Shown piece after piece: positions 5,298-58,496 of a stretch of DNA of 64,000 nt (the stretch's first letter is position 1; every line of letters begins with the position of its first letter). Both the position numbers and the translations under genes were made by a program. The notes below the pieces were generated by a model that was given only the letters and a program-made list of their open reading frames with translations, did not search any database and was not told the origin of the DNA. The DNA comes from an uncultured Candidatus Actinomarina sp. (GTDB taxonomy: Bacteria > Actinomycetota > Acidimicrobiia > Actinomarinales > Actinomarinaceae), in contig CACAND010000001.1 in NCBI GenBank assembly GCA_902533795.1, positions 74,159-138,158 on the forward strand. Reading direction: 5' to 3'.

Positions 5298-6158
5298 ATG
5301 ATAGAAAATAAGTATGCCTCAGCTTTAGATGGTCTTGAAATAGAAGATCCAGTAGAAAGCTTTTTTGATTTCTGTAAGGAACGAGAAAATATAAGAGTTT
5401 CAAGAGAAAATGGTGAAGATTTCCCATGGAGTAAAGATGAAATTTTTCAAAATGGAAGGTTCTTGAATGTCTTCAGAGAAGATGATCGAGTTAGTAAATC
5501 AATTATTAAATTTGCGGGTAATTTAAATGAAGAGCCATCAAAACTAATTAACGCTGTATTTTTTGCAAGGTGGTGCAATAGGCAAGAAATTTTAGATACT
5601 TTAACGCCCGATGATTTAAATAATCCTGAAAACTTAAAAAATAAATTAGAAAGTATTGATCCATGGTGTAATGAAACTGCATATCCAGTTGAACCAGTTA
5701 CATGGGGAGGTAAACAATACTCAAGAATTGATGCTGCAACTAAATTATTTTATGAGGTGCAAGATTCTTTATTAAATATTCTTGAATCATCAAACAAGAG
5801 TGTGATTAATGCAACCAACAACATAAATAAAGAATTTCAAATGCAGAATGATTTTCCAATTTTCATGGCAGTTATTGATATTGCTTGGTTTAGACCCGAT
5901 ATTATTCCAATTGAAAGTGAGGTTCCTACAGGAATAGGTGCTGTTGCTTATCTGGATAGATTGCAAAATCATCTTGGTTTAAGTTCCCATCAAGAAGTTG
6001 GTGAGAAAATGATTGAACTACAAAAAACATACTGGCCTGAAGCAAAACGTGGTTTTAATCCAATAGATATAGAATATTTAGCCTGTGAATGTAGAAAATA
6101 CTATAGCTATATAAATGGGACGAAGGTTTTTGAAGGTAAAAACAAATTTATACCTTAA
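5298..6158 (+). CDS. 5-hmdU DNA kinase helical-domain-like protein (aGPT-pyrophosphorylase-like)
   Basis: 286 residues from the ATG two bases after the PRTase stop; a TTG at 5277 in the same frame is a weaker alternative. I recognise the pattern of the HMUDK helical domain / alpha-glutamyl-putrescinyl-thymine pyrophosphorylase family from DNA-hypermodifying phages: FPWSKDEIF (42-50), GRFLNVFREDDRVSK (53-67, conserved N-x-x-R-x-x-D), ARWCN (90-94), IAWFRPDI (195-202), a Gly-rich TGIGA (211-215) and a C-terminal ECRKYY (264-269). No P-loop kinase domain is attached. In phages such proteins act on modified thymine in DNA. Here it ends a chromosomal pyrimidine operon, so its job is unknown. The family call is by eye and needs a profile search. 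Confidence 0.6.
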   Translation: MIENKYASALDGLEIEDPVESFFDFCKERENIRVSRENGEDFPWSKDEIFQNGRFLNVFREDDRVSKSIIKFAGNLNEEPSKLINAVFFARWCNRQEILDTLTPDDLNNPENLKNKLESIDPWCNETAYPVEPVTWGGKQYSRIDAATKLFYEVQDSLLNILESSNKSVINATNNINKEFQMQNDFPIFMAVIDIAWFRPDIIPIESEVPTGIGAVAYLDRLQNHLGLSSHQEVGEKMIELQKTYWPEAKRGFNPIDIEYLACECRKYYSYINGTKVFEGKNKFIP

Positions 6159-49932: not shown

Positions 49933-52578
49933 CTAAGATATTTCTGCTTGTGCAGCAGCTAATTTAGCAGTTGGGATTCTAAATGGGGAGCAAGAAATAT
50001 AATCAATATCTAAAGTGTTTAAAAATTTGATTGATTTTGGATCACCCGCATGTTCACCACAAACACCAATTTTTATATCTTTATTTATTTTTTTTCCATC
50101 AGCTGCTGAAGAAGCAACTAATTTTCCGACAGTATTTTCGTCAATTGAAACAAAAGGATCAACATCAAAAATATTTTTATCTACATATTCGTTTAAGAAT
50201 TTAGATGCGTCATCTCGTGATAAACCAAGGGTTGTTTGAGTTAAATCATTTGTTCCATATGAAAAGAAATCGGCATATTCTCCAATTTTTGATGAATTCA
50301 AGGCGGCACTTGGTAGCTCGATCATAGTTCCTATCTGGTAATCAAAATTGAAATCTGTTTCTTTCTTCAAGCTTTCAATTTTTTTGGTGATGATCTTTTT
50401 CATTTTTGTAAATTCATTTGCATTCATTATTAAAGGAATCATTATTTCAGGTTTAATTAATATCTTTTCTTTTTGTTGAATTTCATAACTAGCTTTAAAA
50501 ATTGCCTCAACTTGCATTTCATAAATTTCTGGATAACTTAAACCTAAACGCACACCTCGATGTCCTAACATTGGGTTACTTTCGCTAATCTTCGACAAAA
50601 CTTCAGTAACATATGCCGACGAAACTCTTAAAGAACTAGCTAACTCAGAAATTTCAATATCACTTTTTGGTAAGAATTCATGCATTGGTGGATCAAGTAG
50701 CCTAACAGTTATTGGTTTGTCTTTTAAAAGCTTAAATATTTCAACAAAATCATTTATTTGAAAATCAATAATTTTATCTAATGCTCTTTTTCTGCCTTGC
50801 TTATTGTTAGCCATAATCATCTCTCTCATAGGAAGTATTCTTTCACCTTCAAAAAACATATGTTCTGTTCTGCATAAACCAATTCCATCAGCACCAAACT
50901 CTAAAGACTTAGCTGTGTCATTCATTGTTTCTGCATTGGCTCTAATTGAAAGTTTTTTAAAATCATCGCACCATGCCATCAAAGTATTAAATTCATCAGT
51001 TAATTTTGCAGACTCTAACTCGACTTCCCCAAGAAAAATCTCACCCGTAGATCCGTCTAATGAAATTAAATCACCTTCTTCAATAGTTATTTGACCATTA
51101 GATATTTTTCTTTCACCTTTATCAATTTTGAGATTTTCTGCTCCAACTATACAAGGTTTGCCCATTCCTCTTGCAACAACAGCAGCATGGCTTGTCATGC
51201 CACCTTTTGTTGTCAATATTCCTACTGATGTAAACATTCCACTTATGTCCTCTGGGCTTGTTTCATCTCTAACTAAAATGACTTTCTTTCCCCTTGCCGC
51301 TTCGATCTCCGCTTTTTCTGGGTCAAAAACTATTTCACCTACAGCAGCTCCAGGTGAGGCATTTAAACCTTTTTCAAACAATTTTTTACTAGCTGAGTCA
51401 ACAAACTGTGGGTGTAGAACTGAAGTAATCTGATCTGCATTAATCATATTGATTGCTTCTTTTTTGCTTAGTATTTTTTCATTATGCATATCAACCGCAA
51501 TCTTTACACTCGCTTGGGCTGTTCTTTTTGCATTTCTAGTTTGAAGAATGAATAATTCTCCATCTTCAATCGTAAACTCAATATCTTGTGCATCTTTATA
51601 GTGAGTTTCTAATTTATCTCCAATAGATTTTATCTCGTTAAATAGAACCGGGTTTTCTTCCTCGAGAGAAGGTTGAGTGTTCTTTTCATGTTTTCCTATC
51701 GGATATGGTGTCCTTGTTCCTGCAACAACATCTTCTCCTTGAGCATTCATTAAATACTCCCCATACAATTTGTTTTTTCCTGTAGATGGAAACCTTGTAA
51801 AGGCAACACCCGTTCCTGAAGATTCATTTAAATTTCCAAAAACCATAGATTGAATAGTTGTTCCAGTACCCCAATTGTTAGGTATATTATTTATTTTTCG
51901 ATAAGTAACAGCTCGTTTGTTTAGCCAGCTTTTAAATACTGCCTCAATTGCCCCTTTGAGTTGAATAATAGGATCTTGTGGAAAAGGATTTCCATAAAAC
52001 CTTTCAACAGTGGTTTTAAAAGCATCAATGATCCAACTCAATTGTTCAGAATCAAAATCGTTATCTTTTTCGACTCCATCGATCCTTTTTTTATTATCAA
52101 TAATTGCTTCAAACCTGTCCATTTCAATTTCTAGAACAACATTTCCATACATTTGAATTAAACGACGATACGAATCAAGAGCAAATCTTTCATCATTAAA
52201 ATTAGATGCTAAAGCATCTACATTATTGTCATTAATTCCAATATTTAAAATAGAATCCATCATTCCAGGCATTGATACTTTTCCTCCCGATCTAACAGAT
52301 AATAAGAGAGGTGTTTTATCGTCATTAAATTTCTTTTTTGTTATTTTTTCTAAGTCAGAAAGTGCTGTTTCTAATTCTTTATCAAATTTATCTGGAAAAG
52401 ATTTGTTCTCTATGAAATAATTACAAACCTCTGTTGTTACTGTAAACCCAGGAGGGACATTAATTCCAAGGGTTGACATCTCTGCTAAATTTGCCCCTTT
52501 ACCTCCAAGTAAATCCAACATAGATTTATCACCTTCAGTTTTGGTGGAGGAAAATTGGTAAATGAGTTTTTTATTCAT
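49933..52578 (-). CDS. ppdK: Pyruvate, phosphate dikinase
   Basis: 881 residues, the usual length. It interconverts pyruvate, ATP and Pi with phosphoenolpyruvate, AMP and PPi. N-terminal ATP-grasp starts with LGGKGANLAEMS; the swivelling phosphohistidine domain has GGMTSHAAVVARGMGKP (phospho-His); the C-terminal PEP domain ends with CGEHAGDP near the catalytic Cys. It allows gluconeogenic flux or PPi-linked glycolysis. It diverges from the archaeal-type GAPDH gene across 30 bp. Confidence 0.97.
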   Translation of the reverse strand: MNKKLIYQFSSTKTEGDKSMLDLLGGKGANLAEMSTLGINVPPGFTVTTEVCNYFIENKSFPDKFDKELETALSDLEKITKKKFNDDKTPLLLSVRSGGKVSMPGMMDSILNIGINDNNVDALASNFNDERFALDSYRRLIQMYGNVVLEIEMDRFEAIIDNKKRIDGVEKDNDFDSEQLSWIIDAFKTTVERFYGNPFPQDPIIQLKGAIEAVFKSWLNKRAVTYRKINNIPNNWGTGTTIQSMVFGNLNESSGTGVAFTRFPSTGKNKLYGEYLMNAQGEDVVAGTRTPYPIGKHEKNTQPSLEEENPVLFNEIKSIGDKLETHYKDAQDIEFTIEDGELFILQTRNAKRTAQASVKIAVDMHNEKILSKKEAINMINADQITSVLHPQFVDSASKKLFEKGLNASPGAAVGEIVFDPEKAEIEAARGKKVILVRDETSPEDISGMFTSVGILTTKGGMTSHAAVVARGMGKPCIVGAENLKIDKGERKISNGQITIEEGDLISLDGSTGEIFLGEVELESAKLTDEFNTLMAWCDDFKKLSIRANAETMNDTAKSLEFGADGIGLCRTEHMFFEGERILPMREMIMANNKQGRKRALDKIIDFQINDFVEIFKLLKDKPITVRLLDPPMHEFLPKSDIEISELASSLRVSSAYVTEVLSKISESNPMLGHRGVRLGLSYPEIYEMQVEAIFKASYEIQQKEKILIKPEIMIPLIMNANEFTKMKKIITKKIESLKKETDFNFDYQIGTMIELPSAALNSSKIGEYADFFSYGTNDLTQTTLGLSRDDASKFLNEYVDKNIFDVDPFVSIDENTVGKLVASSAADGKKINKDIKIGVCGEHAGDPKSIKFLNTLDIDYISCSPFRIPTAKLAAAQAEIS

Positions 52579-52608
52579 GAGGTTTGATATTCTTATCTTA
52601 ATATAGTG

Positions 52609-53649
52609 ATGAAAAATATATTAATCGTTGGTACAGGAACAATTGGGGAACCACTAATTGGTCTTCTTGCACAGCATAAAGAAAAACTGGGAATTGACAA
52701 CATCTCGTTTTTTAAAAGAACTCCACTTTCAGATGAAAAAGGGAAAGTAGAAGCTTTGATTAGAAAAGGTGCAAAGCTTGTTGCTAATTCAGACGCAAAA
52801 AATGATTTTGAATCTATGGGTTTTGATGTTGAAGATTTAGAGAAAAGCTACGAAGAAAACCAAGTAATTATTGACTGCACTCCATCTGGCAACAAAAACT
52901 GGGATGAAATTTATTCAAATTTAGATAAAGATAAACGTTTTTTAGCTCAGGGTTCCGAACACGGGTTTGGTCCATTTTTTGCATGGGGTATAAATAACAA
53001 TGTCTTAACAAATGATCAAAACAAATATCTAATAGCCTCATGTAATACTCATAATATTGCCTCTATCCTTAAAACTTTCGTTCTTGACACAGACAAAAAT
53101 TTGAATGAAGGTCGTTTTGTATGCTTAAGAAGAGCAAATGATGTTTCTCAGAATGATTCATTCTCACCCTCCCCAACAATTACAAAACATGATAATCAAG
53201 AATTTGGGACTCATCATGCACGAGATGTCTTTGAATTATTTAAACAGGAAGGAAAAGAATTAAATTTATTTTCTTCAGCTATAAAGTTACCAACTCAATA
53301 CATGCATACCTTATGGTTTAATCTATCTTTTGAGAAAAACACTGAACTAAAAGAAGTATTAAATTCTTTAGAAAATAGTGAATTTTTGATGTCTACCGAG
53401 AAATTATCTTCAAATAAGGTATTTTCCTTTGGGCGGGATCATGGTTATCACGGTAGATTACTTTCCCATGGAATTATTGCAAAAGATTCACTTCACGTAA
53501 AGGAAAATAATCTAACAGGATATTGCTTTACCCCACAAGATGGAAATGCATTATTATCTTCTGTTGCAGCATCTGTAAATTATTTTTATGAAGAGAGTTG
53601 GATTGAAAAAATGACTGTTTTTAATAAGTACATATTTAAGAATATTTAG
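52609..53649 (+). CDS. Archaeal-type (type II) glyceraldehyde-3-phosphate dehydrogenase-like protein
   Basis: 346 residues from ATG 52609 (a GTG three bases upstream is in frame). The Rossmann start LIVGTGTIGEP, KRTP, IIDCTPSG, AQGSEHG and catalytic ASCNTHN (Cys145), then LRRAND, THHARDV and LPTQYMHT line up by eye with archaeal type II GAPDH. It is not like the common bacterial GapA. The family oxidises glyceraldehyde 3-phosphate with NAD(P). Lying beside ppdK it suggests a modified lower glycolysis. A different 'semialdehyde' dehydrogenase is the alternative. Confidence 0.7.
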   Translation: MKNILIVGTGTIGEPLIGLLAQHKEKLGIDNISFFKRTPLSDEKGKVEALIRKGAKLVANSDAKNDFESMGFDVEDLEKSYEENQVIIDCTPSGNKNWDEIYSNLDKDKRFLAQGSEHGFGPFFAWGINNNVLTNDQNKYLIASCNTHNIASILKTFVLDTDKNLNEGRFVCLRRANDVSQNDSFSPSPTITKHDNQEFGTHHARDVFELFKQEGKELNLFSSAIKLPTQYMHTLWFNLSFEKNTELKEVLNSLENSEFLMSTEKLSSNKVFSFGRDHGYHGRLLSHGIIAKDSLHVKENNLTGYCFTPQDGNALLSSVAASVNYFYEESWIEKMTVFNKYIFKNI

Positions 53650-53653
53650 AATA

Positions 53654-54169
53654 ATGGAAGAAACAATATGGTCTGGAATGGGAATAATACTTTTTGTAGT
53701 TGCAATAATTTGGCTAATTGTAACTTTGAGCAGAAAAATTAATAAAGCACTAAAAAAATCTGCAGAAATATTAAATTTCCAAACTGATATTCCAAGAAAT
53801 ATATTAAGAAAGAAAAAAATCTTTGGTGAACTAGACGGTTATAAATGTGAAGTTGAAGTTTATACAAGAAGTCATGGCAGATCTTCTACAACCTATGTTT
53901 CTTTCTATGCTTATTTTCCTAATAGCTTAGATATGGGTATAAAAATAAATTGGAAAGGTGAAATTGATGGTGACGATGAGCATCTAACAGACTTATTTGT
54001 TCAAAGAAATGATCGAATAGTTGAAGAAGCTCAAAAAACTTTGAGAAAATTGAGGATATCCGATACTGTTGTAAATTCCAGAAAAATATTATTTATAAAG
54101 TATTACAAACCTGATGAAATTGTTAAAACTATGAAAGATGTAGTGAGCTTGGCAAAAAGTCTAAAATAG
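53654..54169 (+). CDS. Membrane-anchored protein of unknown function
   Basis: 171 residues. One N-terminal membrane helix (about 8-24) is followed by a basic stretch and then a mixed alpha/beta domain with a GRSSTTYVSFYAYF strand region. I do not recognise the domain. It starts four bases after the GAPDH-like stop, so it is co-transcribed. It converges on the b561 gene. Confidence 0.6.
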   Translation: MEETIWSGMGIILFVVAIIWLIVTLSRKINKALKKSAEILNFQTDIPRNILRKKKIFGELDGYKCEVEVYTRSHGRSSTTYVSFYAYFPNSLDMGIKINWKGEIDGDDEHLTDLFVQRNDRIVEEAQKTLRKLRISDTVVNSRKILFIKYYKPDEIVKTMKDVVSLAKSLK

Positions 54170-54173
54170 ATAA

Positions 54174-54737
54174 TTAAATTTTAAGAATTTGTTCAAGTTT
54201 GTCGTATGCACGATTTTCAATGTTTTTAATTTTGGTTAAAAGTTCAGAATCATATTTTTTTGTTTCTTTCCAAACTGGAACCATGCCGTTCCATACTCCC
54301 TCACCTTTTAGTTTAGAATAGAAAGCTGCTCCAATGTGCATAGCAATTAATACATAACTAAGTAATGCAGAGAATTCATGTAATGCGACAGCGAAATCAA
54401 TCCCTCCAATTCCTAAATTAAATAAAGCTGCAATCAAAAGGCCTGTGGTTGGCAACATTATCAAAACAGAGTAGATGAGTCTATGCATAGCCTTCGCAAG
54501 AAATAAATGGCCTGGCCTTACCTCTTGGGTCGCCCCAAGAAGTGTTGGTGCATCTTTCATAAAGAAATACCTTATTAAAACAATAATCAAGAAAATTATT
54601 GCAAATGTTATTTCAAGATTAAGTAGTGAGGGATCTTCAAGCTCACTCAAGTCGTCAACTTGCTTAAATATGCCATAAGAATACAACAAAGTAAACGTCC
54701 AGTGAATAATTTTTGAAGTTTTACTATGTGACATCAT
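54174..54737 (-). CDS. Cytochrome b561 (CybB-like)
   Basis: 187 residues, four membrane helices. Candidate haem His residues are His12 (IIHWT), His85 (AMHR), His120 (LHEF) and His134 (AMHIG), plus a WNGMVP stretch typical of prokaryotic b561. It moves electrons across the membrane, often between quinol and an acceptor. It is the last gene after pntB with a 45-bp gap; a shared transcript is possible. Confidence 0.85.
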   Translation of the reverse strand: MMSHSKTSKIIHWTFTLLYSYGIFKQVDDLSELEDPSLLNLEITFAIIFLIIVLIRYFFMKDAPTLLGATQEVRPGHLFLAKAMHRLIYSVLIMLPTTGLLIAALFNLGIGGIDFAVALHEFSALLSYVLIAMHIGAAFYSKLKGEGVWNGMVPVWKETKKYDSELLTKIKNIENRAYDKLEQILKI

Positions 54738-54782
54738 AAAATACTTTAAATTTTTTTGGGATTATTTGTTGTTAAGTTTTTG

Positions 54783-56114
54783 TTAAACAAGTTCAAATGA
54801 CTTAATAATATTTTCTAAGCCCTCTTTTGCATCTGCAAACAACATCTTTGCATTATCGTTAATAAATAAAGGGTTTGCAATCCCTGCATAGCCTGGCGAC
54901 ATTGACCTTTTAAGAACTACGACTTGTTTAGCTAAATCTACATCTAAAATTGGCATTCCATAAATTGGAGATTCTTCATCAGTTCTAGCTAGCGGATTAA
55001 CTACATCATTTGCACCTAAAACTAATACAACATCTGTTGAGGAAAACTCAGAATTTATATCTTCTAAGGTAAACATATCTTCATAGTCAATATCTACTTC
55101 AGCTAAAAGTACATTCATATGTCCTGGCATTCTTCCTGCAACTGGATGAATAGCAAATTTCACTTCAATATTTTTATCTTTTAACGTATTTGTTAATTCT
55201 TTTACTGCTGCCTGCGCTTGAGCTACCGCCATTCCGTATCCAGGAACAATGACTACAGATTCTGCATAACTCAACTGTATTGCAACATCTTCTGGTGAAG
55301 TGCTTATTGGATCTTTTGCGTACTCATTGTTAATATTTGTTGTTCCAAAACCACCTTTAAGAACATCTAGAAGTGTTCGGTTCATTGCAGCACACATAAG
55401 TAGTGTAAGAATAATTCCAGAAGCACCTACTAAAGCTCCAGCCACGATCAAAATAATGCTATTTACAATAAACCCTGCTGACATAGCGGCAATTCCAGAT
55501 AGCGAGTTTAAGAATGCTATGACAACTGGCATATCTGCTCCACCAATAACAGCAACTCGTATGACTCCAGCAATTAATGCAACCAAGATAATGAATTCAT
55601 TTAGAAAGGTGTCCATTTCTAAAACTGCTGGAATTATTAGAATCGTAGGTAGAAATACTGAAAATATGTTGCCTAATTTTGTACTGAAGTTATTTAATTT
55701 GCCACGGAGTTTCAATACAGCAATAAGACTTCCCGAAAAAGTGAATATTCCAATAGCCATCGAGAAGATTGCTACGAAAACATCAGAAATTGGTAAGGAA
55801 GTATTAGATAACTCAACATATGCAATTGCACCAGATGCTCCTCCCCCAAAGCCATTAAATAATCCAACCAATTCAGGCATCTGTGTCATCTGAACTCGTT
55901 TTGATATTAAAACTCCAAGAAGTCCAGAAACAACAATTGTGATGTAAAAAGCAGAATCATATTTAGAAAAATCAAAATTAAAAGCACTAAATACAGCTAG
56001 TGCCATGGCCAGCATCGCAAAAGAATTTGCTCTATGTGCAGTTGACGGTCTTCCAAAGAGTTTTAAAGCAAATATAAATAAAACAGCAGAGATCAATAAT
56101 ATTGTTTCAATCAT
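54783..56114 (-). CDS. pntB: NAD(P) transhydrogenase beta subunit
   Basis: 443 residues. N-terminal helices form part of the proton channel and the C-terminal domain III binds NADP (PGYGMAVAQAQAAV). Also PVAGRMPGHMNVLLAE and VLGANDVVNP are hallmark PntB segments. With PntAA/PntAB it uses the proton gradient to reduce NADP with NADH. It overlaps pntAB by 8 bp. Confidence 0.97.
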   Translation of the reverse strand: MIETILLISAVLFIFALKLFGRPSTAHRANSFAMLAMALAVFSAFNFDFSKYDSAFYITIVVSGLLGVLISKRVQMTQMPELVGLFNGFGGGASGAIAYVELSNTSLPISDVFVAIFSMAIGIFTFSGSLIAVLKLRGKLNNFSTKLGNIFSVFLPTILIIPAVLEMDTFLNEFIILVALIAGVIRVAVIGGADMPVVIAFLNSLSGIAAMSAGFIVNSIILIVAGALVGASGIILTLLMCAAMNRTLLDVLKGGFGTTNINNEYAKDPISTSPEDVAIQLSYAESVVIVPGYGMAVAQAQAAVKELTNTLKDKNIEVKFAIHPVAGRMPGHMNVLLAEVDIDYEDMFTLEDINSEFSSTDVVLVLGANDVVNPLARTDEESPIYGMPILDVDLAKQVVVLKRSMSPGYAGIANPLFINDNAKMLFADAKEGLENIIKSFELV

Positions 56115-56394
56115 TTTTCTTGAACATTCCTAATATTCGACCAGTAACTGAAAACCCACCAACAATGTTGAGAGTTGCAAATGCAATGGCAATTAATACA
56201 ATAATTTGAAGTATTTGAGAGTCTCCTACTTCTGGATATATAAGAATTGCTGCAATTAATGTAATTCCAGAAATAGCATTTGAACCAGACATTAGAGGAG
56301 TATGTAATGTCTGAGGAATTTTAGAAATAAGTTCGTATCCAATGAAGCTTGCTAGAAAAGTTATTAACAATGTAAGTAAAAAAGTTGTTTCCAT
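56107..56394 (-). CDS. pntAB: NAD(P) transhydrogenase alpha subunit, membrane part
   Basis: 95 residues with three membrane helices and the PQTLHTPLMSGSNAISG motif of the PntA C-terminal part. In this organism PntA is split in two genes, as in Rhodospirillum-type enzymes. Overlaps pntAA by one base. Confidence 0.95.
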   Translation of the reverse strand: METTFLLTLLITFLASFIGYELISKIPQTLHTPLMSGSNAISGITLIAAILIYPEVGDSQILQIIVLIAIAFATLNIVGGFSVTGRILGMFKKND

Positions 56395-57407
56395 TATGAA
56401 CTCATTTCTACAAAAATCTCATCATCACTATTTTCTATAAATAATTCTATTAAATTTCTGACATTCTCTGAATACAATTTTGTAGCCGCATGTTTTACAG
56501 TGTTTAGAATATCTGTTTCACCAACTATCTTTACATTATTAATTTGAACAACTTTGTTTACCTCTGTCCCTTCACAGTTTCCGCCTGTTCCAGCTGCTAA
56601 GTCAATAATCACAGAATTTTCTCTCATATTTTTAATGGTTGATTTTTCAATTAATACAGGTGCTTTTTTTCCAGGTATTTGAGCAAATGTTAAAACAATA
56701 TCACTATCGAGAACTTGTTTCTTTAATGCTTCTTGAATTTTCTGATTTTCTTCTTCTGAGACCTCTTGCGCGTATACGCTATCTTGAGCTTCTGTATTTG
56801 CTTCTACAAATTTAGCACCTAAAGATTCAACTTGATCCTTAGCTTCTTTTCTAATATCAAAAGCCCAAACTCTGGCACCAAGTCTTTTTGCAGTTGCAAT
56901 CGCTTGAAGGCCTGCAACTCCAACTCCAAGAATTAACACTTTGGTCGGTTGGATGTTTCCTGCAGCAGTTGTCATCATTGGTACTACGTCGGATGTCTCT
57001 TTTGCTGCTCTCAAAACTGAAGCATATCCAAGCAAGTTGGCTTGGGAAGAGAGAGCATCTAAATTTTGAGCTCTTGAAATTCTAGGAAGTTTAAAGAAAC
57101 TTAGTACTTTGATATCAGGCCTTAAGTTTTTAATTTCTTCAATCTTTTCAAAATCAAATATTCCAATGAGCACTGCTCCTTTTTTAAGATCCTTTATTGT
57201 TTTACTTTCAATATTTTCTACACAAGCAACAATATCTAAATCACTTATTTTAGAAATAATTTTCACATTTTCTTGATTAGATTCTTTGTAGTTTAGAGAA
57301 TTAAATATATCTTTTTCTAAATACACATCAGATAGATATTTCTCGAAAGATTCGGGGTGTATTGGAGCCCTATATCCATAGACATCTGTTAAAAATCCAA
57401 TATTCAT
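56394..57407 (-). CDS. pntAA: NAD(P) transhydrogenase alpha subunit, NAD-binding part
   Basis: 337 residues, the soluble NAD-binding domain I. Rossmann motif LILGVGVAGLQAIATAKRLGA is seen in parts as GVGVAGLQA, with VIDLAAGTGGNCE further on. It resembles alanine dehydrogenase but lacks the latter's usual length and is adjacent to pntAB/pntB. First gene in pntAA-pntAB-pntB; diverges from glycerate kinase over 48 bp. Confidence 0.94.
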   Translation of the reverse strand: MNIGFLTDVYGYRAPIHPESFEKYLSDVYLEKDIFNSLNYKESNQENVKIISKISDLDIVACVENIESKTIKDLKKGAVLIGIFDFEKIEEIKNLRPDIKVLSFFKLPRISRAQNLDALSSQANLLGYASVLRAAKETSDVVPMMTTAAGNIQPTKVLILGVGVAGLQAIATAKRLGARVWAFDIRKEAKDQVESLGAKFVEANTEAQDSVYAQEVSEEENQKIQEALKKQVLDSDIVLTFAQIPGKKAPVLIEKSTIKNMRENSVIIDLAAGTGGNCEGTEVNKVVQINNVKIVGETDILNTVKHAATKLYSENVRNLIELFIENSDDEIFVEMSS

Positions 57408-57455: not shown

Positions 57456-58496
57456 ATGGGAATTGCTGTATTTGCTGATAAATTTTCTGGAACTCTTTCC
57501 TCTAATGAGGTCATTAATGAAGTTAATAAAATATTTAAATATAACAATATAAAAGCTTCTTTTTTCCCTGTTACGGATGGGGGCGAAGGTTCAACTGAAA
57601 TATTTAAACAATATGGTTTTAAAACAAATGAAAATCTTATGCTGCAAGATTTTACTGGTAAGTGGATCCCTATCGAAACTTTGACAATTAACAAACATAT
57701 TTATCTTGAAACATCGCAATTAATTGGTATAAACAATTCTGAAATTAATACTTTAGATCTAAATTCATCCTGCATCGCAAAAATAATTGATAATGTAGAT
57801 GTTTTATCTATGGGTGGATCAAAAACAAATGATGCAGGTATTGGGCTGCTTAGCAAAATGGGTATTGATTTTTTAAAAAATGATGAAATAATTAAGGATC
57901 CAAAACCAAGAGATTTTGAATTAATTAATAACGTCAATGTAAATGAAGATTTTAAAACACTTAATAAAAAAATTCTTATTGATACGACCATTCCATTGTT
58001 GGGAGAAAAAAATGCTTTTAAGATATTTGGTCCTCAAAAAGGACTTAAAAAAAGTGAAATAAAAAGTATAGAAAAAAATATTGAAAGAATTTTTGACTTA
58101 CTTGAAAAAGAGCTTGAGGTAAAAATTAATCCTTACAAAGAAGGAACTGGTGCCTCTGGTGGCCTTAGCTTTGCACTCAGCGAAGTATTGGGTTGCGAAA
58201 TAGTATCTGGTTCTGATTTCTTTCTAAATGAAACGAAAGTAAACAAAAAAATAAAAAAATTTGAAAATCTGATCCTGTGTGAAGGTAAGTTTGATTTTTC
58301 ATCAATGAATGGAAAAGTTTTAGGTGAAATCTTAAAATTACATACCGGAAGCGCTTATTTCTTAGGTGGAAAGTTTGATTACAATGATGAGAGTGTTTTT
58401 AAAGATGTTTTTGAATTAGGAAACAAGGGTATGAAAGACTCTAAAAAAGAATTAAGAAATGCTACTTATAAATTGGCTAAAAAAATGAAGAGTTAG
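57456..58496 (+). CDS. Glycerate kinase (GlxK family)
   Basis: 346 residues. DKFSGTLSSNEV and TDGGEGSTE at the N-terminus and a GASGGLSFAL stretch at about 230 identify the type I glycerate kinase family. It phosphorylates D-glycerate to 2- or 3-phosphoglycerate, feeding enolase/PPDK. No other glyoxylate-pathway gene is adjacent. ATG with AAAGG upstream. Confidence 0.92.
   Translation: MGIAVFADKFSGTLSSNEVINEVNKIFKYNNIKASFFPVTDGGEGSTEIFKQYGFKTNENLMLQDFTGKWIPIETLTINKHIYLETSQLIGINNSEINTLDLNSSCIAKIIDNVDVLSMGGSKTNDAGIGLLSKMGIDFLKNDEIIKDPKPRDFELINNVNVNEDFKTLNKKILIDTTIPLLGEKNAFKIFGPQKGLKKSEIKSIEKNIERIFDLLEKELEVKINPYKEGTGASGGLSFALSEVLGCEIVSGSDFFLNETKVNKKIKKFENLILCEGKFDFSSMNGKVLGEILKLHTGSAYFLGGKFDYNDESVFKDVFELGNKGMKDSKKELRNATYKLAKKMKS

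Follow-up and report, generated by a model that had tools for sequence, protein, structure and literature searches.

How did a gene for a GAPDH of seemingly archaeal type come to stand next to pyruvate phosphate dikinase (PPDK) in an Actinomarina genome, and what would its product do there? We addressed this in a stretch of 64,000 nucleotides, here called the window, whose features of interest are collected in Table 1. The source genome is 0.98 Mb in size, lies on 13 contigs, and is 90.3% complete. The gene, which we call GAP2, is a frame with zero internal stops and two adjacent candidate starts, GTG at 52606 and then ATG at 52609; the two are equally possible, and residue numbers are counted from the GTG. 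An uninterrupted GAP2 was present in 30 of 34 sampled congeners, not counting its own genome, at 72 to 100% identity, and this conservation together with a match to the type II GAPDH profile NF003251 (E=1.5e-25) indicates that the reading frame is not there by chance. Beyond the genus, GAP2 was found in 5 of the 24 sampled genomes of the class Acidimicrobiia.

Table 1. Features around GAP2, in positions of the window
Feature	Coordinates	Strand	Remarks
PPDK (pyruvate phosphate dikinase)	49933-52578	-	TIGR01828, 1246.6 bits against a cut-off of 843.45; head to head with GAP2
Intergenic spacer of the divergent PPDK-GAP2 pair	52579-52605		27 bases
GAP2, type II GAPDH-like dehydrogenase	52606-53649	+	347 aa; predicted catalytic Cys 146 and His 234; ORF call, profiles, PDB, AlphaFold2 model
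171-aa ORF, no family match, hydrophobic near the N-terminus	53654-54169	+	Directly 3' of GAP2; not constant among relatives
NAD(P) transhydrogenase genes: beta, alpha 4TM part, alpha catalytic part	54783-57407	-	ORF call, profiles
Glycerate kinase family protein	57456-58496	+	PF02595 over cut-off; TIGR00045, 132.6 bits, under the cut-off of 168.45

Family and fold of the GAP2 protein

The NCBIfam model NF003251 is the best profile family for GAP2 and covers residues 2 to 308, but the score of 90 bits lies below the curated cut-off of 185, which was exceeded in none of 23 genomes with GAP2. The match to TIGR01546 (61 bits, E=1.1e-16) is likewise below its curated cut-off of 232.9. Pfam gives sub-threshold matches only; of the type I GAPDH families, PF02800 reached 16.1 bits (E=0.0088) under a gathering score of 24.4, and PF00044 was unlisted. 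An identity as aspartate-semialdehyde dehydrogenase was rejected, with scores far under the cut-offs (14.4 against 324.2 bits for TIGR01296 and 11.8 against 301.2 bits for TIGR00978); placement in another semialdehyde dehydrogenase family, an outcome that the first-pass annotation had allowed for, is not supported by these scores.

The sole clear sequence matches of GAP2 in the PDB are the archaeal GAPDHs 2yyy, 1b7g, 1cf2 and, when a profile is used, 2czc. An AlphaFold2 model built on an alignment of 25 sequences (pLDDT 85.7) superimposed on these same four entries with Z scores of 31.7 to 32.7 over 314 to 322 residues, at an rmsd of 2.6 to 2.9 and 20 to 23% identity, and the next fold match was a bacterial entry with a Z score of 25.3. 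All of the best 50 fold matches listed are GAPDHs or erythrose-4-phosphate dehydrogenases, apart from one titled merely "bacterial dehydrogenase." The predicted model thus has the type II fold over the whole length of GAP2. The six motifs that the first-pass annotation had taken as diagnostic (GTIG, KRTP, DCTPSG, QGSEHG, SCNT, and THHARDV) are all present and in that order.

The catalytic residues point the same way. In an alignment with the PDB sequences, C146 and H234 of GAP2 fall on residues 140 and 219 of 1cf2, so that both residues sit where type II enzymes have their Cys and His; we take these two positions to be the catalytic Cys140 and His219 of the enzyme from Methanothermus fervidus, residue names for which our literature search gave no match. 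Together with R175, R176, H203, H204, D207, and K37, these two residues are invariant in 65 of 65 distinct full-length GAP2 rows including that of the window, drawn from 124 loci with a match after duplicates and rows shorter than 330 amino acids were dropped. The agreement of sequence, predicted fold, and catalytic residues assigns GAP2 to the type II part of the GAPDH superfamily, as a homologue of archaeal type II GAPDH. To this extent the earlier reading of the gene as the archaeal type II enzyme, not the bacterial type, is upheld, but the protein misses the type II cut-offs and does not group with the archaeal rows of the tree described below.

Other conserved positions concern cofactor and substrate. 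K37 aligns with the lysine of the archaeal K-x-x-P stretch in the 1cf2 alignment, while MAFFT puts that stretch elsewhere; the stretch presumably binds NADP, and by analogy the use of NADP by GAP2 may be guessed at. The stretches QGSE, TQYMH, GRD-G, and PQD hold throughout GAP2 and differ in the archaeal and plasmid rows (the archaeal rows stop before PQD), so the substrate may differ as well. In the model, the GRD-G stretch has a pLDDT below 50 at residues 275 to 278 and 280 to 283.

Gene neighborhood and origin

The profiles confirm that PPDK and glycerate kinase genes lie nearby, as the first-pass annotation had noted (TIGR01828 and PF02595, respectively). The PPDK of the window is divergent. 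Its head-to-head arrangement with GAP2 recurs in 34 of 35 Actinomarina-type loci, with spacers of 24 to 56 bases when the starts in relatives are extrapolated from tblastn alignments. At the 35th locus, L058, PPDK has shrunk to a 31-residue C-terminal match (5791-5883) between a 131-aa ORF and an intact GAP2, which shows that the pair can separate. The transhydrogenase gene pntB was found in 26 of the 35 loci, some of which end early. A PPDK match was seen at none of the 19 other loci (L068 to L086) and in none of four Acidimicrobiia flanks (L175 to L178), and among the lineages examined, the link to PPDK is seen only in Actinomarina-type loci.

The interval between GAP2 and pntB (53650-54780 in the window; also L038, L053, L054, L057, L062, L065, and L066) varies among relatives. 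It gains up to more than 3 kb before the 171-aa ORF or, in L038, before pntB, and has the look of a hotspot for insertions within a streamlined genome.

The neighbors of GAP2 outside Actinomarina were considered as a guide to function and set aside, as they vary by lineage and indicate no substrate. The families found there include smpB, an acetyl-CoA carboxylase carboxyl transferase, lpxC, a Mur ligase, and guanylate kinase, as well as meaB, pdxS/pdxT, a BamB-like protein, a zinc alcohol dehydrogenase, and sufB. The scan covered 30 ORFs of six loci, plus two, plus four, from many more that were called, and these lists are rough because the ORF caller favors shadow ORFs in GC-rich loci (GAP2 itself was hidden in L068 and L085). 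A separate observation concerns the sufB gene of the Acidimicrobiia relative G035 (L175, 8328-10955), where TIGR01445 and TIGR01443 domains lie between two SufB halves; this SufB seems to carry an intein.

Relatives of GAP2 were collected by scanning genome contigs for peptide patterns of the query, an approach by which other relatives can be missed. It gave 54 loci, of which 35 are Actinomarina-type and the others, 19 in number, are titled Acidobacteriota, Acidobacteria or Thermoanaerobaculia, Planctomycetota, "Deltaproteobacteria" (Myxococcota in the tree), and Acetothermia (Bipolaricaulota in the tree); archaeal titles were absent from the 54 loci of this pattern-limited scan. Two Planctomycetota genomes, G059 and G074, have two GAP2 copies each (L139 and L142 in one, L137 and L141 in the other), all 46 to 47% identical to the window protein.

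In a tree of 42 rows, the 35 GAP2 rows were separated from seven archaeal and bacterial plasmid type II rows by a split with support of 100/100, and GAP2 did not group with archaeal or archaeal-like sequences there. The branches on either side of the midpoint root measure 4.19 and 4.2 changes per site, or 8.4 between the two clades, a distance to be read with the program's long-branch warning and with an archaeal sample of only three rows that have no C-terminal parts. The GAP2 clade spans Actinomycetota, Acidobacteriota, Planctomycetota, Myxococcota, and Bipolaricaulota. Within it, the five other Acidimicrobiia rows cluster with the remaining phyla in a 28-row clade (96/97) that excludes the Actinomarina rows, so plain vertical descent within Acidimicrobiia does not follow from the tree.

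These results bear on the suggestion that the gene was an old or horizontal acquisition. That Actinomarina gained an archaeal type II GAPDH gene horizontally, as the first reading had it, would agree with the archaeal motif order and with the archaeal best structural matches. We nevertheless regard such a gain as very improbable, since GAP2 has so low an identity to the archaeal structures and misses the curated cut-offs, while archaeal-like copies on bacterial plasmids reach 32 to 41% identity with the Sulfolobus enzyme; the GAP2 rows of five bacterial phyla, moreover, form a single clade apart from the archaeal and plasmid rows. Both the tree and the levels of identity disfavor a horizontal gain from archaea, a source that is left unsupported. 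An old lineage within bacteria, whether or not the gene was anciently transferred between phyla, fits better. The label "archaeal-type, horizontally acquired" can mislead when a family is merely distant.

Companion enzymes and the role of GAP2

The possibility that gapA is absent from the rest of the genome, raised in the first-pass annotation as a point to check, was rejected, as gapA is present on contig C2 in the form of two tandem ORFs with PF02800 and PF00044 matches. The genome also has pgk and pyruvate kinase, and pyruvate kinase was found in 11 of 12 other Actinomarina genomes. With pyruvate kinase present, the modified lower glycolysis that had been proposed is unnecessary in Actinomarina.

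The member of the tandem directly upstream of gapA (L002, 1033-2043) is a GapA paralogue with both PF00044 and PF02800 over cut-off, in which the catalytic Cys is replaced by Asn (GSNTAN for ASCTTN). The pattern GSN[ST][AS]N recurs in all eight aligned Acidimicrobiia tandem loci (L002, L089, L090, L096, L101, L113, L115, and L116); the TVH motif retains its His in seven of the eight and has Lys in its place in L089. This Cys-less protein is perhaps a conserved pseudoenzyme or an altered GAPDH, possibly acting as a partner of GapA.

The best functional hint comes from five genomes in two phyla that have GAP2 and PGK but no detectable PF00044: G068, G070, and G076, of the order of the Acidobacteriota locus L079, and G072 and G166, of the order of the Bipolaricaulota locus L081. 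In these few bacteria, GAP2 is the only GAPDH-like gene found, and it would probably do the job of a GAPDH there. Tests of association at the level of the orders are weak. In the order of G070, PF00044 was detected in 71 of 77 genomes and GAP2 in 28, of which 25 also have PF00044; GAP2 is not enriched among the genomes without GapA (3/6 versus 25/71; Fisher p=0.38, ignoring kinship). In the order of G072, where PF00044 was detected in 15 of 19 genomes and GAP2 in 5, there is a weak enrichment (3/4 versus 2/15; p=0.037, again ignoring kinship).

Assembly gaps matter for calls of absence, as seen from one genome with GAP2 that lacks both GapA and PGK (G167) and four with PGK that lack GapA and GAP2 (G155, G101, G141, and G147). 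In G068, G070, and G076, the pgk stretch is unbroken, has a shared gene order, and holds no gapA; the gene two places downstream of pgk in G070 encodes DAHP synthase, and the same row presumably contains tpiA and secG, to judge from the starts of their sequences. GAP2 of G076 is truncated by a contig end. A search for a candidate ferredoxin GAPDH of the AOR family (PF02730) found none in 10 of 10 genomes. Pyruvate kinase is present in G072 and was found in none of G068, G070, and G076, which would suit an anabolic role of GAP2 in the latter three. These three genomes are small (0.9 to 1.2 Mb), with neither GapA nor pyruvate kinase detected, which would make their lower glycolysis unusual.

On balance, and with confidence only a little above even, we favor the reading that GAP2 is a phosphorylating G3P dehydrogenase with Cys/His catalysis, belonging to a separate and long-diverged bacterial branch of the type II fold, which in Actinomarina would act anabolically and perhaps with NADPH. 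What the analysis shows is homology, a predicted fold, conserved catalytic residues, the pairing with PPDK in one lineage, and the existence of genomes that have GAP2 and PGK but no detectable GapA; the substrate, the cofactor, the direction, and each catalytic step are inferred. C146 would attack the aldehyde of G3P, a hydride would pass to NAD(P) bound in the N-terminal Rossmann domain, H234 would serve as the base, and phosphate would release 1,3-bisphosphoglycerate, which PGK would take or supply. In Actinomarina, which has GapA and pyruvate kinase as well, GAP2 would most likely run from 1,3-bisphosphoglycerate to G3P, perhaps with NADPH, and the possible gluconeogenic use raised in the first-pass annotation thereby forms part of the reading that we favor. 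This direction is in line with the transhydrogenase genes nearby and with the ability of PPDK to form PEP from pyruvate; a review describes PPDK as able to run in either direction, in the section consulted (PMC8100219).

The main rival keeps the fold and the chemistry, phosphorylating or nonphosphorylating, and supposes another aldehyde or phosphoaldehyde in place of G3P. Points in its favor are the branch of 8.4 changes per site that separates GAP2 from the other type II rows and the conserved loops of GAP2, GRD-G among them, which differ from the loops in the archaeal and plasmid sequences; GapA is also present in most carriers examined, and neighbors that differ between lineages name no substrate. 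We consider another substrate possible but doubtful, given that the catalytic residues and the RR and HH residues of type II enzymes are all kept and that five genomes combine GAP2 and PGK with no detectable GapA. A catalytically weak or moonlighting GAPDH homologue appears improbable to us, because C146 and H234 are identical in all 65 distinct rows and GAP2 has been retained by 30 of 34 sampled congeners, whose genomes measure about 1 Mb. What speaks for it is the Cys-less GapA-like protein of the same genome, where nonclassical homologues may thus persist, and the lack of activity in the sole assay we found of a type II GAPDH from bacteria, according to the portion of the report available (PMC6543838).

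If GAP2 is a phosphorylating G3P dehydrogenase, a broader and more tentative picture can be drawn. GAP2 could be an unrecognized third bacterial lineage of phosphorylating GAPDH, at least as old as the divergence seen within the archaeal type II enzymes, that replaced GapA entirely at least two times (in small-genome Acidobacteriota and in some Bipolaricaulota) and elsewhere became the dedicated anabolic partner of GapA; we think this less probable than not. GAP2, a bacterial branch that has diverged within a known fold and is probably a GAPDH, offers a testable case of GapA replacement in two phyla. It is a defined bacterial family that includes genomes with GAP2 as the only GAPDH-like gene found, which lets the question of archaeal-class GAPDH in bacteria be put to complementation.

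Comparison with known GAPDH systems

Our literature searches found no paper on the GAP2 family. The text consulted in two articles describes archaeal and bacterial GAPDHs as strongly different (PMC5610209 and PMC8615399). In the portion available of a paper on the sister order UBA5794, the word "glyceraldehyde" appears once, in connection with inositol breakdown (PMC12008989). The available part of a 2019 study reports that CDQ83_07070 of P. thermosuccinogenes, a bacterial "class II (archaeal)" GAPDH that is likened to GAP2 by class name only, gave no detected activity with either NAD or NADP; according to the authors, functional evidence for archaeal-class GAPDH in bacteria is lacking (PMC6543838).

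The bacterial plasmid proteins called type II GAPDH (from Pontibacter, Phenylobacterium, Indioceanicola, Rhizobium, Rhodococcus, and others) share the superfamily and the bacterial hosts with GAP2. A Sulfolobus query matched 37 plasmid records, of which 35 aligned over 80% or more of the query with 32 to 41% identity, and nearly all of the copies are annotated as type II GAPDH in the PLSDB tables. They are, in contrast, 22 to 25% identical to GAP2, and the four that entered the tree cluster with the archaeal enzymes; by sequence comparison, the window gene is different from these archaeal-like GAPDHs. The four plasmid regions examined have glgP, pyruvate:ferredoxin oxidoreductase, or a metal/P-type ATPase within a few genes.

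Type I GAPDH, or GapA (PF00044 and PF02800), resembles GAP2 in a distant fold (Z of about 25) and in Cys chemistry and is present elsewhere in the same genome, but GAP2 has no PF00044 and a sub-threshold PF02800 match. The closest known system is archaeal type II GAPDH (NF003251 and TIGR01546; 1b7g, 1cf2, 2yyy, and 2czc), with which GAP2 shares the two-domain fold over nearly the full length (Z of about 32), the Cys and His, the RR and HH stretches, a similar length and, in the 1cf2 alignment, the K-x-x-P stretch. GAP2 differs from it in an identity of 20 to 23%, scores under the curated cut-offs, the four stretches of its own (QGSE, TQYMH, GRD-G, and PQD), and its position in a separate clade.
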